A stretch of 64,000 bases of DNA from the NCBI RefSeq assembly GCF_000194135.1, contig NC_015318.1, positions 62,001 to 126,000 on the forward strand. The letters run 5' to 3'. Below the pieces are notes generated by a model. That model was not told the DNA's origin and ran no database searches. It was given only the letters and a program-made list of their open reading frames with translations. Positions 1,010-53,763 of this stretch are shown piece by piece. The number at the start of each line of letters is the position of its first letter. The first letter of the stretch is position 1. The DNA comes from Hippea maritima DSM 10411 (GTDB lineage: Bacteria; Campylobacterota_A; Desulfurellia; Desulfurellales; Hippeaceae). Made by a program: the position numbers and the translations under genes.

Positions 1010-1136
1010 GTATAACGTGAGCATCACCCGCCCGCCGACTCTGGCAATCCGAGAAACTTTGACCAGAACCACAGCAGGCAATTTTCGCGCCGCTTACCTA
1101 CCGCCGAAGGCGGGTCGGGTGAATGCATGGTTAGGC
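1010..1136 (-). other. attC-like recombination site (integron 59-base element)
   Basis: On the minus strand the site opens with GCCTAAC (R'', consensus RYYYAAC, 1136-1130) and closes with GTTATAC (R', 1016-1010). The arms between them pair as GCATTCACCCGACCCGCC (R'' side) with GGCGGGCGGGTGATGC (R' side), leaving two unpaired bases on the R'' arm. Such extrahelical bases are the hallmark of attC strand recognition. The length (127 bp) is within the attC range. The stop codon of the upstream ORF lies inside R''. If the cassette were excised, its own 5' TTAGGC would restore a perfect GCCTAAC/GTTAGGC pair. Confidence 0.8.
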
Positions 1137-2019
1137 TTCACTTTCTGAATGAGCAAGTTCGAATAGTTTTTGCAACAGTTCAGTATTAGATTCTAAATCA
1201 CCTGGCCTTAGTCTTAGTCGATACTTGCCCCATTTATTAAGATACTCAACATCGAGACCAGATTCTTCTAATTCGGTTGTCAACTCGGCATCTTCTGCTA
1301 AACGGACTTCAACATTTATCCATTTTTTCTTTGGCTTACAAGCCACAAAATTATTTGCAATGCCATCTTTTGCCATCCCGATATAAAACTTGTTGTACTT
1401 CAATTGGTAATCAGGAGCAAATGAATGAACGAGTTTTAAAATTGTATCCGCAAGTTCTAACGTCGCCTGTGAGCCACGTTTCAGCCAGTAATCCCGATCT
1501 GTAACCAAACTGCTTTCTTCGTCTTCATCAACCAATCCGAGAGCGAGTTCATCAATCACTTTAGTGAACGACAACCCAATCCCATCACCAACTTTTAGAG
1601 CTGTCATCTGGATGGCAATCAGAGGAATAAACCCATTAAAAAGTGATATAACATTAAGGAATCTACTGGTGATATTCTCAGCTACCAATACCGCACAATG
1701 ATCATATTGAGGATAGCGTTTCCTTTCCAAATCCAAATACTCAATTGTGCGAATAATATGGCTTTCGTCTGTTGCGCCTAACTGTATTTCTACTTCATAT
1801 CGTTTATTTGTGTCGGGGTCTTGCAAAAGCAAGTCTAATCTACCGGCTTTTGGCTGTTTTCTCTCTTTGTCTCGCAGAACAACGTCCCCTAAACCTAGCA
1901 TCGATGGATCATCAGCAATCACCCGTTGAACCCAAGCTTCATTTAGTTCTGGATGTTCCTTGATCGAGATGCTTTCTAGTTTTACATGTTTCATTGTTTC
2001 TCCAGTCTATGAAGCCTAA
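1016..2019 (-). mobile_element. integron-type gene cassette, 1,004 bp
   Basis: The segment lies between two G^TTRRRY-type cut points on the minus strand, G^TTAGGC (2020/2019) and G^TTATAC (1016/1015). It contains one ORF in cassette orientation and ends in an attC-like hairpin. The layout is canonical: a short 5' leader (19 nt from R' to ATG), one gene, and a stop overlapping R''. Base composition is visibly more G+C-rich than the flanks, consistent with foreign origin. No intact IntI is present in the window, so this is best described as a lone attC (CALIN-like) cassette, or one inserted by an integrase encoded elsewhere. Confidence 0.75.
1131..1994 (-). CDS. cassette-borne protein with PD-(D/E)XK nuclease-like motif
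   Basis: This is the only gene of the cassette (287 aa). Residues about 50-75 contain GRLDLLLQDP followed by RYEVEIQLG. The LD...EVEIQ spacing resembles the D...ExK/Q active site of PD-(D/E)XK nucleases such as NucS/DUF91 proteins. It is followed by a helix (HIIRTIEYLDLERKRYP) of the kind that packs behind that site. The C-terminal half (about 190-287) is unassigned. No signal peptide or membrane segment is seen. Codon and base composition differ from neighbouring genes. A nuclease or DNA-binding role is a motif-level inference; family membership is not established. The ATG at 1994 is 19 nt after R'. Confidence 0.7.
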   Translation of the reverse strand: MKHVKLESISIKEHPELNEAWVQRVIADDPSMLGLGDVVLRDKERKQPKAGRLDLLLQDPDTNKRYEVEIQLGATDESHIIRTIEYLDLERKRYPQYDHCAVLVAENITSRFLNVISLFNGFIPLIAIQMTALKVGDGIGLSFTKVIDELALGLVDEDEESSLVTDRDYWLKRGSQATLELADTILKLVHSFAPDYQLKYNKFYIGMAKDGIANNFVACKPKKKWINVEVRLAEDAELTTELEESGLDVEYLNKWGKYRLRLRPGDLESNTELLQKLFELAHSESEA

Positions 2020-2078
2020 CATAAGATTAGGTGTACTAATGAAAATAGCAAAGGTTGCTCTTCGGGACTACCTAATCT
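2014..2078 (-). other. possible degenerate attC upstream of the cassette
   Basis: The R' box GTTAGGC (2020-2014, minus strand) is preceded by a 9-bp inverted repeat: AGATTAGGT at 2024-2032 and ACCTAATCT at 2070-2078 on the plus strand. This is the position expected for the arms of the attC of a previous cassette. I cannot find a convincing R'' partner on the far side, so it could be a decayed attC or an unrelated hairpin. Confidence 0.3.
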
Positions 2079-2198
2079 ATACAGCTTGCTTTTTGTTAAT
2101 TGTTTAATTTTATTTATGTTATACATCCTTTTACATCCATTCATTTCCTTACATAGGTTGCTCATAAAGCAGCCTATACTAAAAATCAACAGGACTTC

Positions 2199-2330
2199 TT
2201 ACTCCTTAGCAGCCTTAATTAAGTAAATCATGGTAGTTTCCACGTTTTTATGCCCCAATAATTCTTTTATCATTTTATTATACTCTAAACCACCCGCTTG
2301 TTTTTGTTCATAAAATGTTCCAAATCTTAA
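2199..2330 (-). pseudogene. tyrosine recombinase, C-terminal remnant
   Basis: The minus strand reads LRFGTFYEQKQAGGLEYNK and then MIKELLGHKNVETTMIYLIK before a TAA at 2201-2199. This matches the end of tyrosine recombinases (LRHSFAT..., LLGHK.V.TTMIYTH) with the HxxR region eroded and THV lost after the Tyr. There is no start codon or N-terminal domain, and an in-frame TAG lies just upstream. It is distinct in sequence from the intact recombinase at 139-990. It could be what is left of the enzyme that served the cassette, but too little remains to tell IntI from XerC/D types. Confidence 0.65.
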
Positions 2331-2361
2331 CTACTCTGTTTTTCATTCTCTTTTCTCAACT

Positions 2362-2390
2362 TTTATACACTCAAAAGTTATGTCTGTCAA
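2362..2390 (-). promoter_or_regulatory. sigma70-type promoter reading toward the cassette
   Basis: On the minus strand TTGACA (2390-2385), a 17-nt spacer and TATAAA (2367-2362) make a near-consensus promoter. It now precedes only the recombinase remnant, then the gene cassette at 2019. It could be the old recombinase promoter or act like an integron Pc promoter for the cassette gene. Confidence 0.5.
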
Positions 2391-2614
2391 ATCTTTGAAA
2401 TTTATTGCCGTTCTATTTCCACATATTTATCAAAAAATTCGGACAGGTAGAGAAAAGAGGATCAAGTCTAGACATTTTATTCTCTTTATTACCCATTATC
2501 CATTAAAAAATGTCATCCGCCGTGCTAAAATACACCGCAAACGTCTACTAAAAGTGCACCACTTTTAGTAATTGTTTATACTCTCCTGGAATAATCTTTT
2601 TCAAGGAGAGTACT

Positions 2615-3685
2615 ATGATTAGCAAGGAGGAGTTTGTTGTGATTCACACACTGCATTCTCAAGGGTTGTCAATCAGACAGATATCAAAAATTCTTGGTCT
2701 AAACAGAAGAACGGTATCAAAAAGACTGAAAGAGGAGGATTTAAAACCGTATTCCAAAAGAAGCTACCCCTCAAAGCTTGATGGTTACAAAGATTATATA
2801 AGGACAAGGATTAATCAAGCCTATCCAGATAGGATTCCTTCTACTGTCGTTTTAAGAGAGATAGCTGATATGGGATACACAGGGAGTCTAAGAACACTTC
2901 AGAAATACACAAAAACCATCTACGATAGTATTGACCCAAAAAGAGGTAAAAACAGTGAGGAAATAATTAGGTTTGAAACCGAAAAAGGCTTTCAAGCTCA
3001 GGTTGATTGGACAACCATTAGGTCAGGTCAAAAGCCCATTTATGCATTTGTTATGGTTTTAGGTTATTCAAGAGCAGCTTTTGTTTATTTTACAGATAAC
3101 ATGCGACAGGACATATTTCAGTCCTGCCACATTAAAGCGTTCGACTACTTTGGTGGAATACCAAAGACCATACTGTATGATAACCTAAAATCCGTTGTAA
3201 TTCAAAGGGATAAATAGGGACAAAACAGACACGGAATAAACGATGAGTTTCTTGATTTCTCAAAGGGCTTGTTTGTACCGAAACTCTGTAAACCATATAA
3301 GGCAAAGACAAAGGGGAAGGTAGAAAGGTTTAATTCATATCTGAAGAACAATTTCTACAAGCCTTTGAGGGCAAAGCTAAAGAACTCTGGTTTGGAGATA
3401 ACCCCTGATCTTCTAAACTCATACATCTTCTCCTGGCTTGAGATGGCAAACAACAGAATACATGCAACAACAAAGAGAAGACCTTTTAATATGCTGAAAG
3501 AGGAGTATGGGTTTTTGACAAAGATACCGGATGGTCTGATTGCCAAAAGTGGGGATAGAAATGACCATAAAATCACTGAAGCCATTGAAAAGACAAACAG
3601 AACCTACTCTGATATCGATATCTCATACTACACAAATATAGATGAATACGAAAGGCTCTTGCTTGGGGAGAGCAGTAATGGTTAA
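2615..3685 (+). pseudogene. istA: IS21 transposase IstA, interrupted by an in-frame TAG
   Basis: The reading frame runs from ATG 2615 to TAA 3683-3685 (356 codons) except for one TAG at 3215-3217. The N-terminus has a helix-turn-helix (LSIRQISKILGLNRRTVSKRL). The DDE/rve core follows with QVDWTT (first Asp), LYDNLKSVV (second Asp) and KGKVERFNSYLK (Glu). The stop falls in VIQRDK*GQNRHG, where a Tyr or similar codon is expected. It splits the product just after the second catalytic Asp, so no full DDE triad can form without read-through. A TTG at 3269 could restart translation, but only of the C-terminal third. Confidence 0.85.
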
Positions 3686-6371: not shown

Positions 6372-6691
6372 TTACAACACCCTTGTATCTTCAATATACG
6401 GCAGTATATAAGGACTTATCCCTTTTTCTGTAAGCAGGTCAACTTTAATATCTAATATATTGGATAGGTATTCCTCAAGCTCAATGATGTCGAAATATGT
6501 CGGTGTTTCAAAAAAGTCAACGATCAAATCCAAATCACTATTCTCGTTTTGTCTTCCCTCTGCATAAGAGCCAAAAATCCTTATGCCTTTTACATTGAAC
6601 TCATTTTTGAGCTTGTCTGCATGCCTGAGTATAATCTGTTTTATGTCCTCTAAAGTATTCTTTTCTTTAGTTTTCGTGTTTAAATTTTAAC
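6372..6691 (-). pseudogene. MntA-like nucleotidyltransferase antitoxin, frameshifted near its start
   Basis: The minus strand encodes a minimal nucleotidyltransferase with the motif GSYAEGRQNENSDLDL (G-S-x10-D-x-D) and the third carboxylate in IKVDLLTEKG. It ends RVL at TAA 6374-6372. No ATG, GTG or TTG is in frame at the N-terminus. The ATG at 6691-6689 (MLKF) joins the frame only if one base is removed from the AAA at about codon 5. MntA-type enzymes inactivate HepT by AMPylating it; here both partners of the module look broken. Confidence 0.7.
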
Positions 6692-15593: not shown

Positions 15594-15608
15594 TTTGGGG
15601 TGAGAAAG

Positions 15609-16964
15609 ATGTATGAGTCAGCAGCTGATCTTTTAAAAAACAGCAATAGCGATTTTTTTGATATATACAGGGAAAAATCCTATATAAGGATGTTGCAGGC
15701 CAAAAACGGCCAGATAGAGGATGTTAAGGTTGGATTTGAGGAGGGTGTAGGCGTTAGGCTTGTTAAGGGTTTGAGTGTTTTTTATTCATCATCCACCAAC
15801 ACGGATGAGGATAGTGTCTATAAAATAGCCAAGTTTATAACAGATGTTGCAAACCCCAAGCAGGGCAGGTTTGATATAACCCCCTTTGAGCTAAAAAGGG
15901 TTGAGATGTGGGGTGGCTATAAACCAGACCTTGAGCGCATCGCTGAAATATATGATGAGTTTTGTAGTGTGGCTTATAAGAAGGCCGAAGTAAAGCAGGT
16001 CAGCTTGACATTCTCCGATAGAAAGAAGCAGATAGAGATAATAAACGAAAAAGGAGAATTGCTTAAAGAAGAGAGGATTTATACGGTTTTGTTCTTTGAG
16101 CTTACAGCCAGAGAGAAACAAATAACACAGACCATAAGAAGGCCTTTTGGTGTTTTGGGCGGTTTTGAGTATTTTGACGGATGGGATTTTAAGGGGTTAG
16201 CCGAAGAGGAGACAGAAAAGCTTTTAAATCTGCTTAAAGCACCGCCACTTAAAGCCCAAAAGATGACTGTGGTGCTTTCCAGTCAGGCTGGCGGAACTAT
16301 GATCCATGAGGCTGTGGGTCATGGCCTTGAGGCTGATCTAGTGTATGAAAATTTAAGTGTTTATAAGGATAAATTAGGGCAAAAGGTGGCAAGCGAGAAG
16401 ATCACCGTGGTTGATGATGCAACAAGGCCTAAGATGAGGGGGTCTTTTTATTATGATGATGAGGGTGAGAGGTCTAAAAACACGGTTTTGATAGAAAACG
16501 GTGTGTTGAAGAATTATATGTTTGATAAGATGTATGCAAGATTGGCGGATAAGCAAACCACAGGCAACTCAAGAAGGGAATCCTACCGTTTTGCTCCCAT
16601 TGTGCGCATGTCCAACACCTATATACTGCCTGGTGAGGATAATCCTGAGGATATAATAGCCTCTGTGGATTATGGGCTTTTGGTTAAAAGGATGGGGGGT
16701 GGCCAGGTAAACCCCACAACGGGCGATTTTGTGTTTGAGGTGGCCGAAGGGTATTTAATAGAAAACGGCAAGGTTAAACATATGGTAAGGGGTGCCACAT
16801 TAATTGGTAATGGGCCTAATGTGTTGAATGAGATAGATATGGTGGGGAGTGATTTTGGCGTTGAGGTTGGCACATGTGGTAAATCGGGTCAAGGCGTTCC
16901 TGTGAGTGATGGTGAACCTACATTGAGGATTCCATCTATTATGGTAGGAGGTAGTAGCCTATAA
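15609..16964 (+). CDS. tldD: TldD-family metalloprotease
   Basis: TldD with a TldE partner forms a metalloprotease that cleaves unfolded peptides and matures some modified peptides. The Zn motif HEAVGHGLE (HExxxH type) follows SSQAGGTMI at about 235-250. The C-terminal GTCGKSGQGVPV and LRIPSIMVGG are family signatures. Length (about 451 aa) is normal. ATG 15609 is chosen because GGGGTGAG lies just upstream; GTG 15600 has no Shine-Dalgarno. No TldE gene is seen in this window. Its last codons double as the ribosome-binding site of truA. Confidence 0.93.
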   Translation: MYESAADLLKNSNSDFFDIYREKSYIRMLQAKNGQIEDVKVGFEEGVGVRLVKGLSVFYSSSTNTDEDSVYKIAKFITDVANPKQGRFDITPFELKRVEMWGGYKPDLERIAEIYDEFCSVAYKKAEVKQVSLTFSDRKKQIEIINEKGELLKEERIYTVLFFELTAREKQITQTIRRPFGVLGGFEYFDGWDFKGLAEEETEKLLNLLKAPPLKAQKMTVVLSSQAGGTMIHEAVGHGLEADLVYENLSVYKDKLGQKVASEKITVVDDATRPKMRGSFYYDDEGERSKNTVLIENGVLKNYMFDKMYARLADKQTTGNSRRESYRFAPIVRMSNTYILPGEDNPEDIIASVDYGLLVKRMGGGQVNPTTGDFVFEVAEGYLIENGKVKHMVRGATLIGNGPNVLNEIDMVGSDFGVEVGTCGKSGQGVPVSDGEPTLRIPSIMVGGSSL

Positions 16965-17686
16965 GATACTGCGCTTGTATTGCCTATGATGGCACAAACT
17001 ACAGTGGATTTCAGATTCAGCCAGATGTAAAAACTGTTCAAGGAGAGATAGAAAAGGCCTTAAAACGTATATTCAAAACCGACCTCAGGATCAACTTTGC
17101 CGGCAGAACCGATGCTGGCGTTCATGCCTTTGAACAGGTTATAGATTTTCCTGTTATTGCTGATATTGAAACTTATAGTCTAAAAAAAGCCCTAAATTCA
17201 GTTTTACCTGAAGATATACGTATAAAAAGCGTCAAAATTGTTGATAATAGTTTTCATTCAAGGTATAGTGCAAAGTTTAGGGAGTATGTGTATTTTGCCT
17301 TTGATGGTGAATATTTACCGCCGTTTTTGTGCCGCTATGTTTGGCATGTTAAATTTAAGTTGGATGTCGATGCAATGAGATTGGCATCAAGACTGTTTGT
17401 GGGTTATAAGGATTTTTCCTTTGTGGCCAATGAGCCTGAAGGCAAAAATTGTACAAGAGAGGTTTATTTTTTGAGGATAAAAAGATATAGAGAATTTGTT
17501 GTTTTCCATATAAGGGCAGGCGGTTTTTTGCGAGGTATGGTTAGAAATATTGTCGGGCTTTTAGTTGGATATTCTGCAAATGCCTTGCAAATAGACAAAA
17601 GCGGTAATATAATTTTTAGTAGGGGCAATTTAAAGTCCTTTAAAGCCCCGGCATGTGGTCTATTTTTGAGAAGGGTTGCTTACTAA
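16961..17686 (+). CDS. truA: tRNA pseudouridine38-40 synthase TruA, apparent ATA start
   Basis: The open frame encodes a complete TruA of about 241 aa. It begins RYCACIAYDGTNYSGFQIQP, has the catalytic Asp in FAGRTDAGVHAFEQ and ends with GGFLRGMVRNIVGLL. Its 5' limit is set by two consecutive in-frame TAG codons (16952-16957). Between these and the GTG at 17288 there is no ATG, GTG or TTG, and starting at 17288 would remove the catalytic Asp. ATA 16961 sits exactly where the family Met lies (M-R-Y) and is 8 nt downstream of a perfect AGGAGGT (16946-16952) within tldD. I therefore infer AUA initiation. The alternative is a frameshift or sequencing error. Confidence 0.88.
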   Translation: MRYCACIAYDGTNYSGFQIQPDVKTVQGEIEKALKRIFKTDLRINFAGRTDAGVHAFEQVIDFPVIADIETYSLKKALNSVLPEDIRIKSVKIVDNSFHSRYSAKFREYVYFAFDGEYLPPFLCRYVWHVKFKLDVDAMRLASRLFVGYKDFSFVANEPEGKNCTREVYFLRIKRYREFVVFHIRAGGFLRGMVRNIVGLLVGYSANALQIDKSGNIIFSRGNLKSFKAPACGLFLRRVAY

Positions 17687-28295: not shown

Positions 28296-28569
28296 TGTCT
28301 CTCCTCTTAAACTTAAATGATTTTAGTTTAAATAGCGGCTCATTTGGTGGATCATACCCGCCAGCGCTCCACGGCCCGCACCTTAAAATCCTCCATATGG
28401 ACATCATGCCACCCTGTATGGGGCCAAACTTTTTTATAGCCTCAATGGAGTAGTTGGAGCATGTGGGGTAGAACCTGCATGAAGGTCTGGTTAATGGGGA
28501 AATAAAACGCTGGTATAGCTTTATTAGACCTATCATGAAGCTGGATATAGCCTTACTTATTGGGTTCAT
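28282..28569 (-). CDS. yidD: membrane protein insertion efficiency factor YidD
   Basis: This 95-aa DUF37 protein has the diagnostic run [20 protein letters not shown] (about 19-38) with conserved cysteines, then [19 protein letters not shown]. It overlaps rnpA upstream by 17 bp and yidC downstream by 14 bp. Confidence 0.95.
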
Positions 28570-28891
28570 TCTTAAGCTTATTTAAAAATAAATTTTGCAT
28601 CCTTTGAAAATCTGCTTCTAAAACAGCCTTTCTTGCTATCAAAACAATCCAAATATTGTTTGGTAGAAAGGGTTGAGATAGCCTTACTATTTCCCTTAGT
28701 CTCCTTTTTGCTCTGTTTCTCTTTACGGCTTTACCAATCTTTTTGCTTGCTACTACCCCTACTTTTAAGTTTTCCTTGTCCTTTAAGGTAAATAATACAA
28801 AAAAGGGCGTAACTACCTTTCCCCCTTTTTCATATACTTCTTTGAATTCTTTTGAGGTTAAGCTTTTGTAATGTTTCTTTAAACTGACAAT
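28553..28891 (-). CDS. rnpA: ribonuclease P protein component RnpA, apparent ATT start
   Basis: The frame encodes a full RnpA of 112 aa. It has [20 protein letters not shown] at the N-terminus, [20 protein letters not shown] as the RNR signature (P RNA binding), then RLREIVRL. An in-frame TAG (28900-28898) limits it upstream. Between that stop and a point well past the RNR motif there is no ATG, GTG or TTG. The only sensible initiator is ATT 28891, which gives MVSLKKHY at the family position and overlaps the rpmH end by 13 bp. The Shine-Dalgarno is weak, suggesting translational coupling to rpmH. Inferred AUU initiation recalls infC; a frameshift or base error is the alternative. Confidence 0.88.
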
Positions 28892-29013
28892 CTCTTTCTA
28901 CCCTTAGCTCTCCTTCTGGATAAAACCTTCCTTCCACCGGCTGTTTTCATTCTTGTCCTGAATCCGTGGGTTCTTTTTCTGGGTTTATTGTGTGGCTGAA
29001 AAGTTCTTTTCAT
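28879..29013 (-). CDS. rpmH: 50S ribosomal protein L34
   Basis: This 44-aa basic protein begins [20 protein letters not shown] and ends GRKRLSV, typical L34. The ATG is preceded by a strong GGAGGTAAGGAG. It is first in the rpmH-rnpA-yidD-yidC-mnmE-mnmG-rsmG cluster that flanks oriC in many bacteria; dnaA is not adjacent here. Confidence 0.97.
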
Positions 29014-50407: not shown

Positions 50408-50958
50408 TCCTTTTTTCTTATCCAGCCCGTCTTTGTTTCTATATATGTACCATTTGGTGCTGTATCTTGCCATTGTTTTGCAAATATCCTCCTGAGTCTA
50501 TCTATTTGAGAGGGTTGAATATTTAAAACACGTGCCACCTCGTGATATAGTGACTCTCTATCTTTATTTTCGCTGACTACAAGCTTCTTTAGTTTTACTT
50601 TATCCTTTAAGGATGGCGGCTGGCGGTAGATTTTTAAATGCCCATCCAATGTTTCTCCAAGATAGCCTTTTTTGTAGTAGGGTTTCATTAATTCAAATCT
50701 TTTCTTCATTGATTCTTTTATGGCTTTGATCTTTGCGTTGGTTGTGTTTAGTACATCGGATGCATGGGCAGTTGGTATAAGAAGCTCTAGAAGAGAGGTT
50801 GGTTCTGTTTTTGGGGTAGTTTTCTTTTCTCCTCTAATATCGTTAACTATTTCTTTTGCCTTTTCTTGGGCTTGTCTTGCTGGGAAGTATATATTTACAG
50901 TTACACACGAATAGACAAGCAAGAGTATAACACTCCATAAAACACTGAGTTTTTTCAT
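50404..50958 (-). CDS. YdbL-like DUF1318 lipoprotein
   Basis: This 184-aa protein has a lipobox-like N-terminus (LLLVYSC) followed by VTVNIYFPARQAQEKAKEIV, then a DUF1318 domain (about 90-184: RFELMKPYYKKGYLGETLDG, YIETKTGWIRK). YdbL is encoded with YdbH, an AsmA-like bridge that moves phospholipids between inner and outer membranes in E. coli. Here it overlaps the ydbH-like gene by ATGA. The small lipoprotein YnbE that sits between them in E. coli has no separate gene here. Confidence 0.8.
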   Translation of the reverse strand: MKKLSVLWSVILLLVYSCVTVNIYFPARQAQEKAKEIVNDIRGEKKTTPKTEPTSLLELLIPTAHASDVLNTTNAKIKAIKESMKKRFELMKPYYKKGYLGETLDGHLKIYRQPPSLKDKVKLKKLVVSENKDRESLYHEVARVLNIQPSQIDRLRRIFAKQWQDTAPNGTYIETKTGWIRKKD

Positions 50959-53131
50959 TTCTTCACCTCCCTTTTCTCTAAAACGCGTTTTAGTCTACCT
51001 AAAAAATCATCCCATGAAATCTTGTTGTTTCTATTCATATTAACTACGTTTATACCACCAAAGAAGCCTCTTTTGATAATATACTCGACGTTTCCATTTT
51101 TGTAAAGTCCATGGATTGCGAAGGTATTATTTTTTAGTATAGCCTTAACGCCTATAGAGGAGTAGGAAAAGCTTTTAAAGAAGGGTAATGCTATACTTAC
51201 ATATCCGCCTCCAATCTTTGATATACTGTTTACCGCTTTTAGCGATATTCTTTGCGATGCTCCTTTTACGTTTTCTGTTTGAACTAAAGCGTTGAATGAT
51301 AGGGGGTTTTTAAATTTTATTAAGGCCAGGTTGTGAATATAGCCCTTTATGTAGCCTGTAACTTGGCCAAAATTGGATAATTGAGTTAGTTTTTTTAGGT
51401 TTATGTGGCTGAAATCTACATCCAACATTAAAATGGGCATATCTTTTAATGATAACTTGATATTTTTTATATATATCTTACCGTCAAATGCATCTATCTT
51501 TACAGATCCTCTTGTACTTATGTATTTGTTGGTTAGATTTCCTTCTAAAATATTTATTTTAATTTCTGCAAGCTTTGTTTTTATTTTGGCTTTTATTGGA
51601 CCAAAGTGCAGGGTTTTTTTTATTGGGTATAGGCAAAGACTAACGGGTTGTACTGTTAAGTTATCCGAGCTTTTTATACTTAAAATAGAGCATAATTTAT
51701 TATTTTGTGAGGCTATCTTTGCCTCAATACGTGCCTTTAGTTGTTTTGAGATAAACATAGCATTTAGCTCTCCTGTATCTTTTTTGTTTGTGTTTACGAT
51801 TAATGGAAGGATTAGTTTTAAATTCTTGAGTGTTACACTTTTATAGCGGATGCGGCTTGATATTATGTTTATCTTTGAAAAAAAGGAACGCCCTGATGTG
51901 TATTGTCCGGTTATTATTATTGATGATTTATTGTCTAAAATTAGATTGTTTAGCGTTTCTAGTTCATATGAATCTCTAAGGAATGAAATTAAATTGTTCA
52001 TATTGATCGGTTTTACTTTAAATATTAGCCCTTTTTTTGTTTTTGCTACATTGGCAGAAAAGAGATTTCTAAGTGTTAGGCTTAGTTTTTGTTTGTTTTT
52101 TATAGTTGCACTGAGATTGAAAGATGAAAAGTCAAAATATATGTTATCTTTTAATAATGCCTCACCTGATGATATTAAAATCTTTGATAGTTCTGGTAAG
52201 TATAAAAGTTCACCTTTTAGGTTTTGTGCTACAAGATTTGAATAATTTATTGATAGATTAGCAAAGCTTAGCTTAGCTTGAAGTTTTTTTTTAAAATTAC
52301 TGAAAGTCTAACATAGGGGGCATCTACCAGCTTGGAAGATTCCCTTAAATCATTGATTGTTGCAGTGAATTTGTTGTTTTTAAGATTTGCTTTAATTTTA
52401 AAGGAGAATCTGTATCGCCCATATTTAAGATTTGCAGAAGTTTTTAATGCGTTGAGTTTTATGTAAAAAGGATTTAAGTTTATATATATGTTCTGTAACT
52501 TTATAGGCTGTCTTATATCTAACGATGACTTGCCTTTTTCAATATGTATTGTATGGGGATTTATATATAGGTTTTCTAAATATATTCCAGATGGGGATAG
52601 ATTTATTTTGCCGTTTGCTGAATTTATAGCTGCTGATAATGTTAAATTTTTCGATTTATAACCTATATTACCCTTAAACGTCAATAGTCTGCCCTTTAGG
52701 CTTGCAGAGATATTTTTTAAACTTACAGGACCATAATCAAGGCTTATATTGTCCATACTCAGGCTTTTTATTTTTATAGGTATAAGGTTGAATCCTTTAG
52801 CTTTGTCTGTTTCGTTGGGTTTGTTTTGGATTTTTATATCACTATTTTTTATTGTAGCTGTTATGTAGCCGTTTTTGTCTATAGAGGCTATTAGTGTTCC
52901 TATGTTTGCGTTGATATCGTCTTTTTTTATAGTCAATGAATTTATCTCTATGCTGGTGGGGGATTTGATTTTTATCTTTTCAAAATTTGATGTTATGTCA
53001 TATTTTTTTAGCGCAAAGTTTAATGCAACGCTTAAAATTGACGGTTTATTTAAAACTACAATGTATACAACAAGTAGTATAATTATTGCCATGAGTATTG
53101 TATTTAGGCTGAGTTTTAGAAACTTCCTCAT
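50955..53131 (-). pseudogene. YdbH-like (AsmA-like) intermembrane lipid transport protein, frameshifted at A9
   Basis: Two frames together encode about 724 aa of an AsmA/YdbH-like protein. The first part (53131-52268, 287 aa) has an N-terminal membrane anchor (LNTILMAIIILLVVYIVVLN) and long beta repeats. The second part continues in another frame without a break from the A9 run (plus-strand T9, 52284-52292) through LQAKLSFANLSINYSNLV to 50955. Ten A residues would fuse them. The whole downstream frame remains open for over 400 codons, so the change is recent, or is tolerated by slippage at A9. ATGA overlaps link it to the crp/fnr gene upstream and ydbL downstream. Confidence 0.75.
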
Positions 53132-53763
53132 TGCAGTAACTCTATCCTTTTTGCATTCATTTTTATTAACCCTTTCGATGAAAGCCTTTTTAGGGTTCTT
53201 GAAAATGTCTCAGCAGTTAGACCAAGAAGTGTGGCTATGTCTTTTTTTGGTATATCCAGTACCACGGTGTTGTTTTTATCTTTTAAAGAATAAAGGTAGT
53301 TTATAATTTTCTCTTCCGCATCCTCACCTGAGAGTTCTTTTATCTTTTCAACCAGATATTTTATTCTTTGGGCGAAGATACCTAAAAGCTTCATGGCAAA
53401 TTCAGGCTTTCTCTTTATTCTTTCAAATAGATGGTGCGTGTTTATGGATAACAGCAGCGTATCTGTTATAGCCATTGCGCTTGCTGGATATATGTTTTTT
53501 AAGAATAACACGACCTCGGCAAACATTTCGCCTTCTTTTGCTATATTCAAGACAATTTCTTTACCGTCTTCACCGGTTTTAAATATTTTAATCAGCCCGC
53601 TTACAACAAAAAACATCTCATTACCCTTATTATTTTCCAAAAAGAGTAACTCCCTTTTTCTTTTGCTTATGAGCATGGATACTGCGTTTAGATCTTCTAA
53701 AAATCCTTCATCTTCTATATTCAGTTTATCTAAAAACAGTTGCAAGGCACTTTTTTTATCCAT
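53128..53763 (-). CDS. Crp/Fnr-family transcriptional regulator
   Basis: The 211-aa protein has a cNMP-binding-type beta barrel (about 25-115, FFVVSGLIKIFKTGEDGKEIVL), a dimer helix and a C-terminal winged helix (about 150-205, IPKKDIATLLGLTAETFSRTLKRL with the family ETFSR recognition motif). No Fnr-type N-terminal cysteines are present. It is divergent from hcp, with a TTGAC-N4-GTCAA palindrome in between, resembling HcpR-type control of the nitrosative-stress gene hcp. It is also the first gene of a ydbH-ydbL transcript. Confidence 0.9.
   Translation of the reverse strand: MDKKSALQLFLDKLNIEDEGFLEDLNAVSMLISKRKRELLFLENNKGNEMFFVVSGLIKIFKTGEDGKEIVLNIAKEGEMFAEVVLFLKNIYPASAMAITDTLLLSINTHHLFERIKRKPEFAMKLLGIFAQRIKYLVEKIKELSGEDAEEKIINYLYSLKDKNNTVVLDIPKKDIATLLGLTAETFSRTLKRLSSKGLIKMNAKRIELLQ

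Follow-up and report, generated by a model that had tools for sequence, protein, structure and literature searches.

Translation of truA in Hippea maritima very probably starts at an AUA codon that overlaps the tldD stop codon and is conserved in the family

The tRNA pseudouridine(38-40) synthase gene truA of Hippea maritima very probably begins with an AUA codon. We propose that translation of truA is coupled to that of the preceding gene tldD, that it starts at an AUA codon selected to be weak, and that this start is probably discriminated against by initiation factor IF3, a reading to which we assign a probability of about 0.6. The window, a stretch of 64,000 nucleotides from the 1,694,430 bp genome of strain MH2T (PMC3156395), carries on its + strand tldD (open reading frame 15600-16964, recognised by NCBIfam TldD matches), which codes for a TldD-family metalloprotease and is the upstream partner of truA (16961-17686). 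The truA frame is shifted by -1 relative to tldD and is open for 241 codons from the ATA codon at 16961-16963 to the stop codon at 17684-17686. At its beginning, it reads TAG TAG CCT ATA (16952-16963), and in the sequence ctATAA the ATA shares its last two bases with the tldD stop codon TAA (16962-16964). The Shine-Dalgarno (SD) sequence AGGAGGT (16946-16952) precedes the ATA with a spacing of 8 nt; it is located within the codons for a conserved Val-Gly-Gly of TldD, of which it could in part be a by-product. The earliest ATG, GTG or TTG in the truA frame is a GTG at codon 110 (17288-17290), which lies past the codon for the catalytic residue Asp51 (17111-17113) and would yield a 132-aa fragment without this residue. 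The preliminary description of the locus had reported the two in-frame TAG codons, the lack of a canonical start ahead of the catalytic Asp, and an ATA at the position of the family methionine 8 nt past AGGAGGT, and all of these are borne out here. A gene finder confined to ATG, GTG and TTG would have to truncate truA.

The identity of the product is well supported. A single, full-length truA copy is present in the H. maritima genome, and its product matches the family profile TIGR00071 with 177.1 bits (curated cut-off 142.85) and the solved TruA structure 1dj0 with E=1.5e-35. Residue 5 of the query is aligned with position 5 of the profile, which places the ATA at the start position of the TruA family. 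The motif GRTDAGVH at codons 48-55 conforms to the catalytic GRTDxGVH signature, and its Asp51 was assigned from the sequence and by alignment with E. coli TruA. Between codons 2 and 109, the comparison with the nearest relative gave a Ka of 0.12 and a Ks of 1.2, indicating purifying selection on the codons that precede the first canonical start, and hence that the N-terminal part of TruA is translated.

To compare orthologues, as had been suggested, we searched the class and found 24 genomes with truA, the loci of which were oriented before comparison. The start position is ATA in all 15 family loci, which come from five genera and from independent assemblies of 15 species, and the 4-nt overlap with the tldD stop codon is present in every one of them. 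In 13 of these loci tldD ends with CTATAA or TTATAA, while the remaining two have CTATAG (L013) and AAATAA (L015). The sister family, represented by three loci from three genomes, has the sequence TAA TAT ATT throughout, in which the ATT start follows the tldD stop codon at a distance of 3 nt and there is no overlap; truA is in frame with tldD there, after the TAA. In the two remaining families of the class truA has ATG. At no locus of the order did we find an upstream ATG, GTG or TTG in the truA frame, and the downstream ones are dispersed between codons 5 and 110, with none common to the relatives; codon 5 of the sister-family genes, a TTG or CTG, could serve as an alternative start but is badly spaced. 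All 18 loci have a GGAGG-like purine run at a distance of 6-9 nt upstream, with a perfect AGGAGG in two of them; within the family the distance to the ATA is 9 nt in 14 of the 15 loci and 6 nt in L015. Initiation at the ATA, which is kept while neighbouring codons change, is supported by this comparison as the sole reading compatible with all relatives.

The conservation of the ATA within truA alone would be a weak test, as the isoleucine column 219 is also ATA throughout, and the 15/15 count overstates the evidence because the relatives are not independent. A stronger test is provided by the overlapping gene. The last tldD codon contributes its third base as the first base of the ATA, and among 451 tldD codon columns in the 15 family genomes the column that supplies the ATA is the only one in which the third base is A everywhere. 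For comparison, A-ending codons make up 30% of the tldD leucine codons, and CTA 8% (40/472). The second and third bases of the ATA are the first two bases of the tldD stop codon, which is TAA in 14 family loci, TAG in one and TGA in none, while TGA terminates about 30% of the genes in our H. maritima survey. A change of this stop codon from TAA to TGA would convert the ATA to ATG and leave TldD unaltered, and substitutions at synonymous sites have come close to saturation, with a Ks of about 1.2 for the closest pair and higher values for the others. Nonetheless, no ATG was found at the truA start position in any of the 15 family and three sister-family loci. Selection on the bases of the AUA is thus visible in the sequences, and we consider it probable that the codon has been kept for the sake of a low or IF3-dependent output. 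A -10 promoter box was also considered as a cause of the conserved TATAA and was ruled out, as L013 has TATAGC and L015 has AAATAA, so that only the ATA is kept.

How might such a start work? The initiator tRNA of H. maritima is ordinary, with the anticodon CAU and the usual GGG/CCC stem, which rules out an altered initiator tRNA and means that AUA must be decoded by means of a mismatch. The 3' end of the 16S rRNA carries the usual anti-SD sequence, with the CCTCC that matches the SD run. According to our model, ribosomes completing tldD would terminate at the UAA that overlaps the AUA, and the strong SD sequence 8-9 nt upstream would position a 30S subunit, either the same one or a new one, on the AUA. 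The initiator tRNA would then pair with AUA with a mismatch at the third position, which IF3 would reject, and TruA output would be kept low. A codon-anticodon mismatch at the start is what IF3 discriminates against (PMC5472188; PMC10158994), and in E. coli an excess of IF3 reduces re-initiation (PMC2268962). If the model is correct, TruA output should follow IF3 activity up or down, as should that of infC, the IF3 gene, which is itself AUA-started. With its near-cognate non-canonical start, its strong SD sequence at proper spacing and its conserved, apparently selected weak codon, truA resembles genes that are discriminated against by IF3. We infer actual initiation at the AUA, a weak output and coupling to tldD from the sequence, and a control by IF3 by analogy. 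As a separate observation, two of the 47 tRNA matches in the genome (L053-L112) have the anticodon CAT, namely the initiator (L081) and a tRNA-Ile2-like tRNA (L065); these matches did not include a separate elongator tRNA-Met.

The simplest rival accepts the AUA as the start and differs in what its weakness means: coupling to tldD through AUAA and a strong SD sequence would suffice for initiation, and a poor codon would be tolerated and inherited rather than serve as a control device. The exact 4-nt overlap in 15 of 15 family loci fits well with this explanation, as does the general expectation that TruA is needed in small amounts only. It leaves unexplained, however, why AUG, which is a single synonymous change of the stop codon away, is absent from loci in which synonymous sites are near saturation, and why the sister family, which lacks the overlap, has AUU. 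Both the absent ATG and the sister-family ATT speak against it, and we regard it as rather unlikely, even though it is the strongest competitor of a selected weak start.

The other explanations dispense with the AUA start altogether. Initiation could occur at a different non-canonical codon in the truA frame, for instance at codon 7, which is ATT in the H. maritima gene, and give a slightly shorter protein. This appears very improbable, as the relatives have TTA, GTA, TTG, ATA or GTT at this position and share only the ATA start, codon 7 is without an SD sequence, and a start there would remove part of the first beta strand, which aligns with solved TruA structures. Alternatively, TldD and TruA could be made as a fusion by -1 frameshifting or stop codon readthrough. 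The -1 position of the truA frame in the family and its in-frame position after the TAA in the sister family are both suggestive of this, and SD-like sequences are able to stimulate -1 frameshifting. But the two TAG codons just upstream in the H. maritima truA frame would confine a frameshift to the last 9 nt of tldD, a slippery heptamer was not found before the tldD stop codon, invariance is limited to the bases of the ATA, and the two families would require two different recoding events, so that we give a fusion hardly any credence. Least probable of all, to the point of being negligible, is that the ATA reflects a sequencing error or that truA has decayed: the same codon is present in the independent assemblies of 15 species, and the gene is a single full-length copy with a low Ka/Ks. 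With the codon shared by the relatives and the H. maritima assembly based on 1,241x coverage with a stated error of less than 1 in 100,000 (PMC3156395), an assembly error is excluded.

Initiation at AUA had been described as extremely rare in bacteria. Rare it is, but it is of a known kind, with infC, pcnB, ccpN and cvfC1 as precedents, and truA adds another case to the conserved AUA and AUU starts already known. Starts at AUU, AUC or AUA are known for infC from E. coli, Streptomyces and S. aureus, and in these species, as with truA, an AUN start stands behind a strong SD sequence and is conserved in relatives. In contrast to infC, truA does not code for IF3, so that there is no self-feedback, and it overlaps the stop codon of the upstream gene. 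ATGA stop-start overlaps are a familiar form of translational coupling by re-initiation; truA shares with them the 4-nt overlap between an upstream stop and a downstream start, whereas here the sequence is ATAA (once ATAG), giving an AUA start. S. aureus ccpN (AUA) and cvfC1 (AUU) likewise have conserved AUA or AUU starts behind strong SD sequences, but these are other genes in another phylum, and a stop-start overlap is not described for them in the accessible part of that report (PMC13009471). According to the same report, the AUA starts of S. aureus infC and ccpN, and reporters with AUA or AUU starts, yield about 10-30% of the output of AUG (PMC13009471). The Streptomyces sigR gene, which is repressed by IF3, is similar in having a non-canonical start with a AGGAGGTG SD sequence, genus-wide conservation and an output that is held down (PMC5472188). 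Its start is GTC and not AUA, and the IF3 effect is experimental for sigR but inferred for truA. Our searches of the open-access literature turned up no description of an AUA or AUU start for truA or rnpA.

The list of conserved non-canonical starts in bacteria is short, and such starts cannot be reported by standard gene finders. The case described here concerns a widely conserved tRNA-modification gene, with a weak codon that is maintained throughout an entire family of sulfur bacteria from hot vents and replaced by a different weak one in the sister family. It makes testable the hypothesis that the IF3 level controls tRNA-maturation genes. In the same genomes, infC shares the AUA start with truA. 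The H. maritima infC gene (L037 1477-2001; G000:296573-297097) starts at ATA after AGGAGGTGAT, in the context AGGAGGTGATGCC-ATA-AGA-GGC, and the ATA stands behind AGGAGGTGAT or a similar sequence in 17 of 17 loci of the order. Both genes may therefore be under joint control. In the relative G004, the apparent absence of IF3 was rejected as a genuine loss and put down to a probable assembly gap, as this one-contig genome also lacks rplT in our search.

A third gene, rnpA, coding for the RNase P protein (28553-28891, - strand; frame listed 28553-28897; TIGR00188 80 bits), apparently starts at ATT (28891-28889). There is no ATG, GTG or TTG before codon 85 of the stop-to-stop frame, and at the family start position all 16 loci of the order have ATT; elsewhere in the class, the start is ATC in family f4 and ATG in f3. 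The ATT is placed at the end of rpmH, within the codons for a conserved Arg-Leu, and its conservation is weaker evidence because it is partly explained by rpmH. One might tentatively speculate, while considering it on balance doubtful, that in the Desulfurellales the IF3 level sets a small regulon by way of the weak AUN starts of infC (AUA), truA (AUA/AUU) and rnpA (AUU). If true, this would couple the supply of mature tRNA, through 5' processing and anticodon-stem pseudouridylation, to the level of an initiation factor.

Searching for coding frames without a canonical start, combined with a test of the start bases in an overlapping gene, offers a simple route to further cases. Our survey applied a codon-pair coding score to 644 kb (38% of the genome) with 605 coding open reading frames of at least 80 codons, and collected those with at least 30 coding codons ahead of any ATG, GTG or TTG; it is blind to genes in which a weak start is soon followed by a chance ATG, GTG or TTG. 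The well-known +1 frameshift of prfB makes this gene an expected positive control, and it was picked up (L157 15552-16586; G000:341552-342586) with its usual CTTTGAC frameshift site. Apart from prfB, the only intact genes recovered were truA, which had the top score, infC and rnpA. All but one of the other start-less frames were rejected as broken genes, namely an AsmA-like split frame, a helicase with a TAA, a transposase, and fragments of a chemoreceptor and a dehydrogenase. The AsmA-like case (window 50955-53209, - strand) consists of the overlapping frames 52268-53209 and 50955-52307, which resemble a single protein interrupted by a frameshift close to an A-run and gave no Pfam match. The helicase-like gene (L136, about 1119-3046; G000:147119-149046) carries an in-frame TAA close to its N-terminus, at a position occupied by a sense codon in the relative G004, and the dehydrogenase-like coding frame (L165 12612-13070; G000:498612-499070, - strand), which begins right after an in-frame TGA, looks broken. 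Lastly, a nucleotidyltransferase-like open reading frame in the window (6372-6686, - strand) runs for 51 codons before any canonical start and represents either a gene with a weak start or a broken one.
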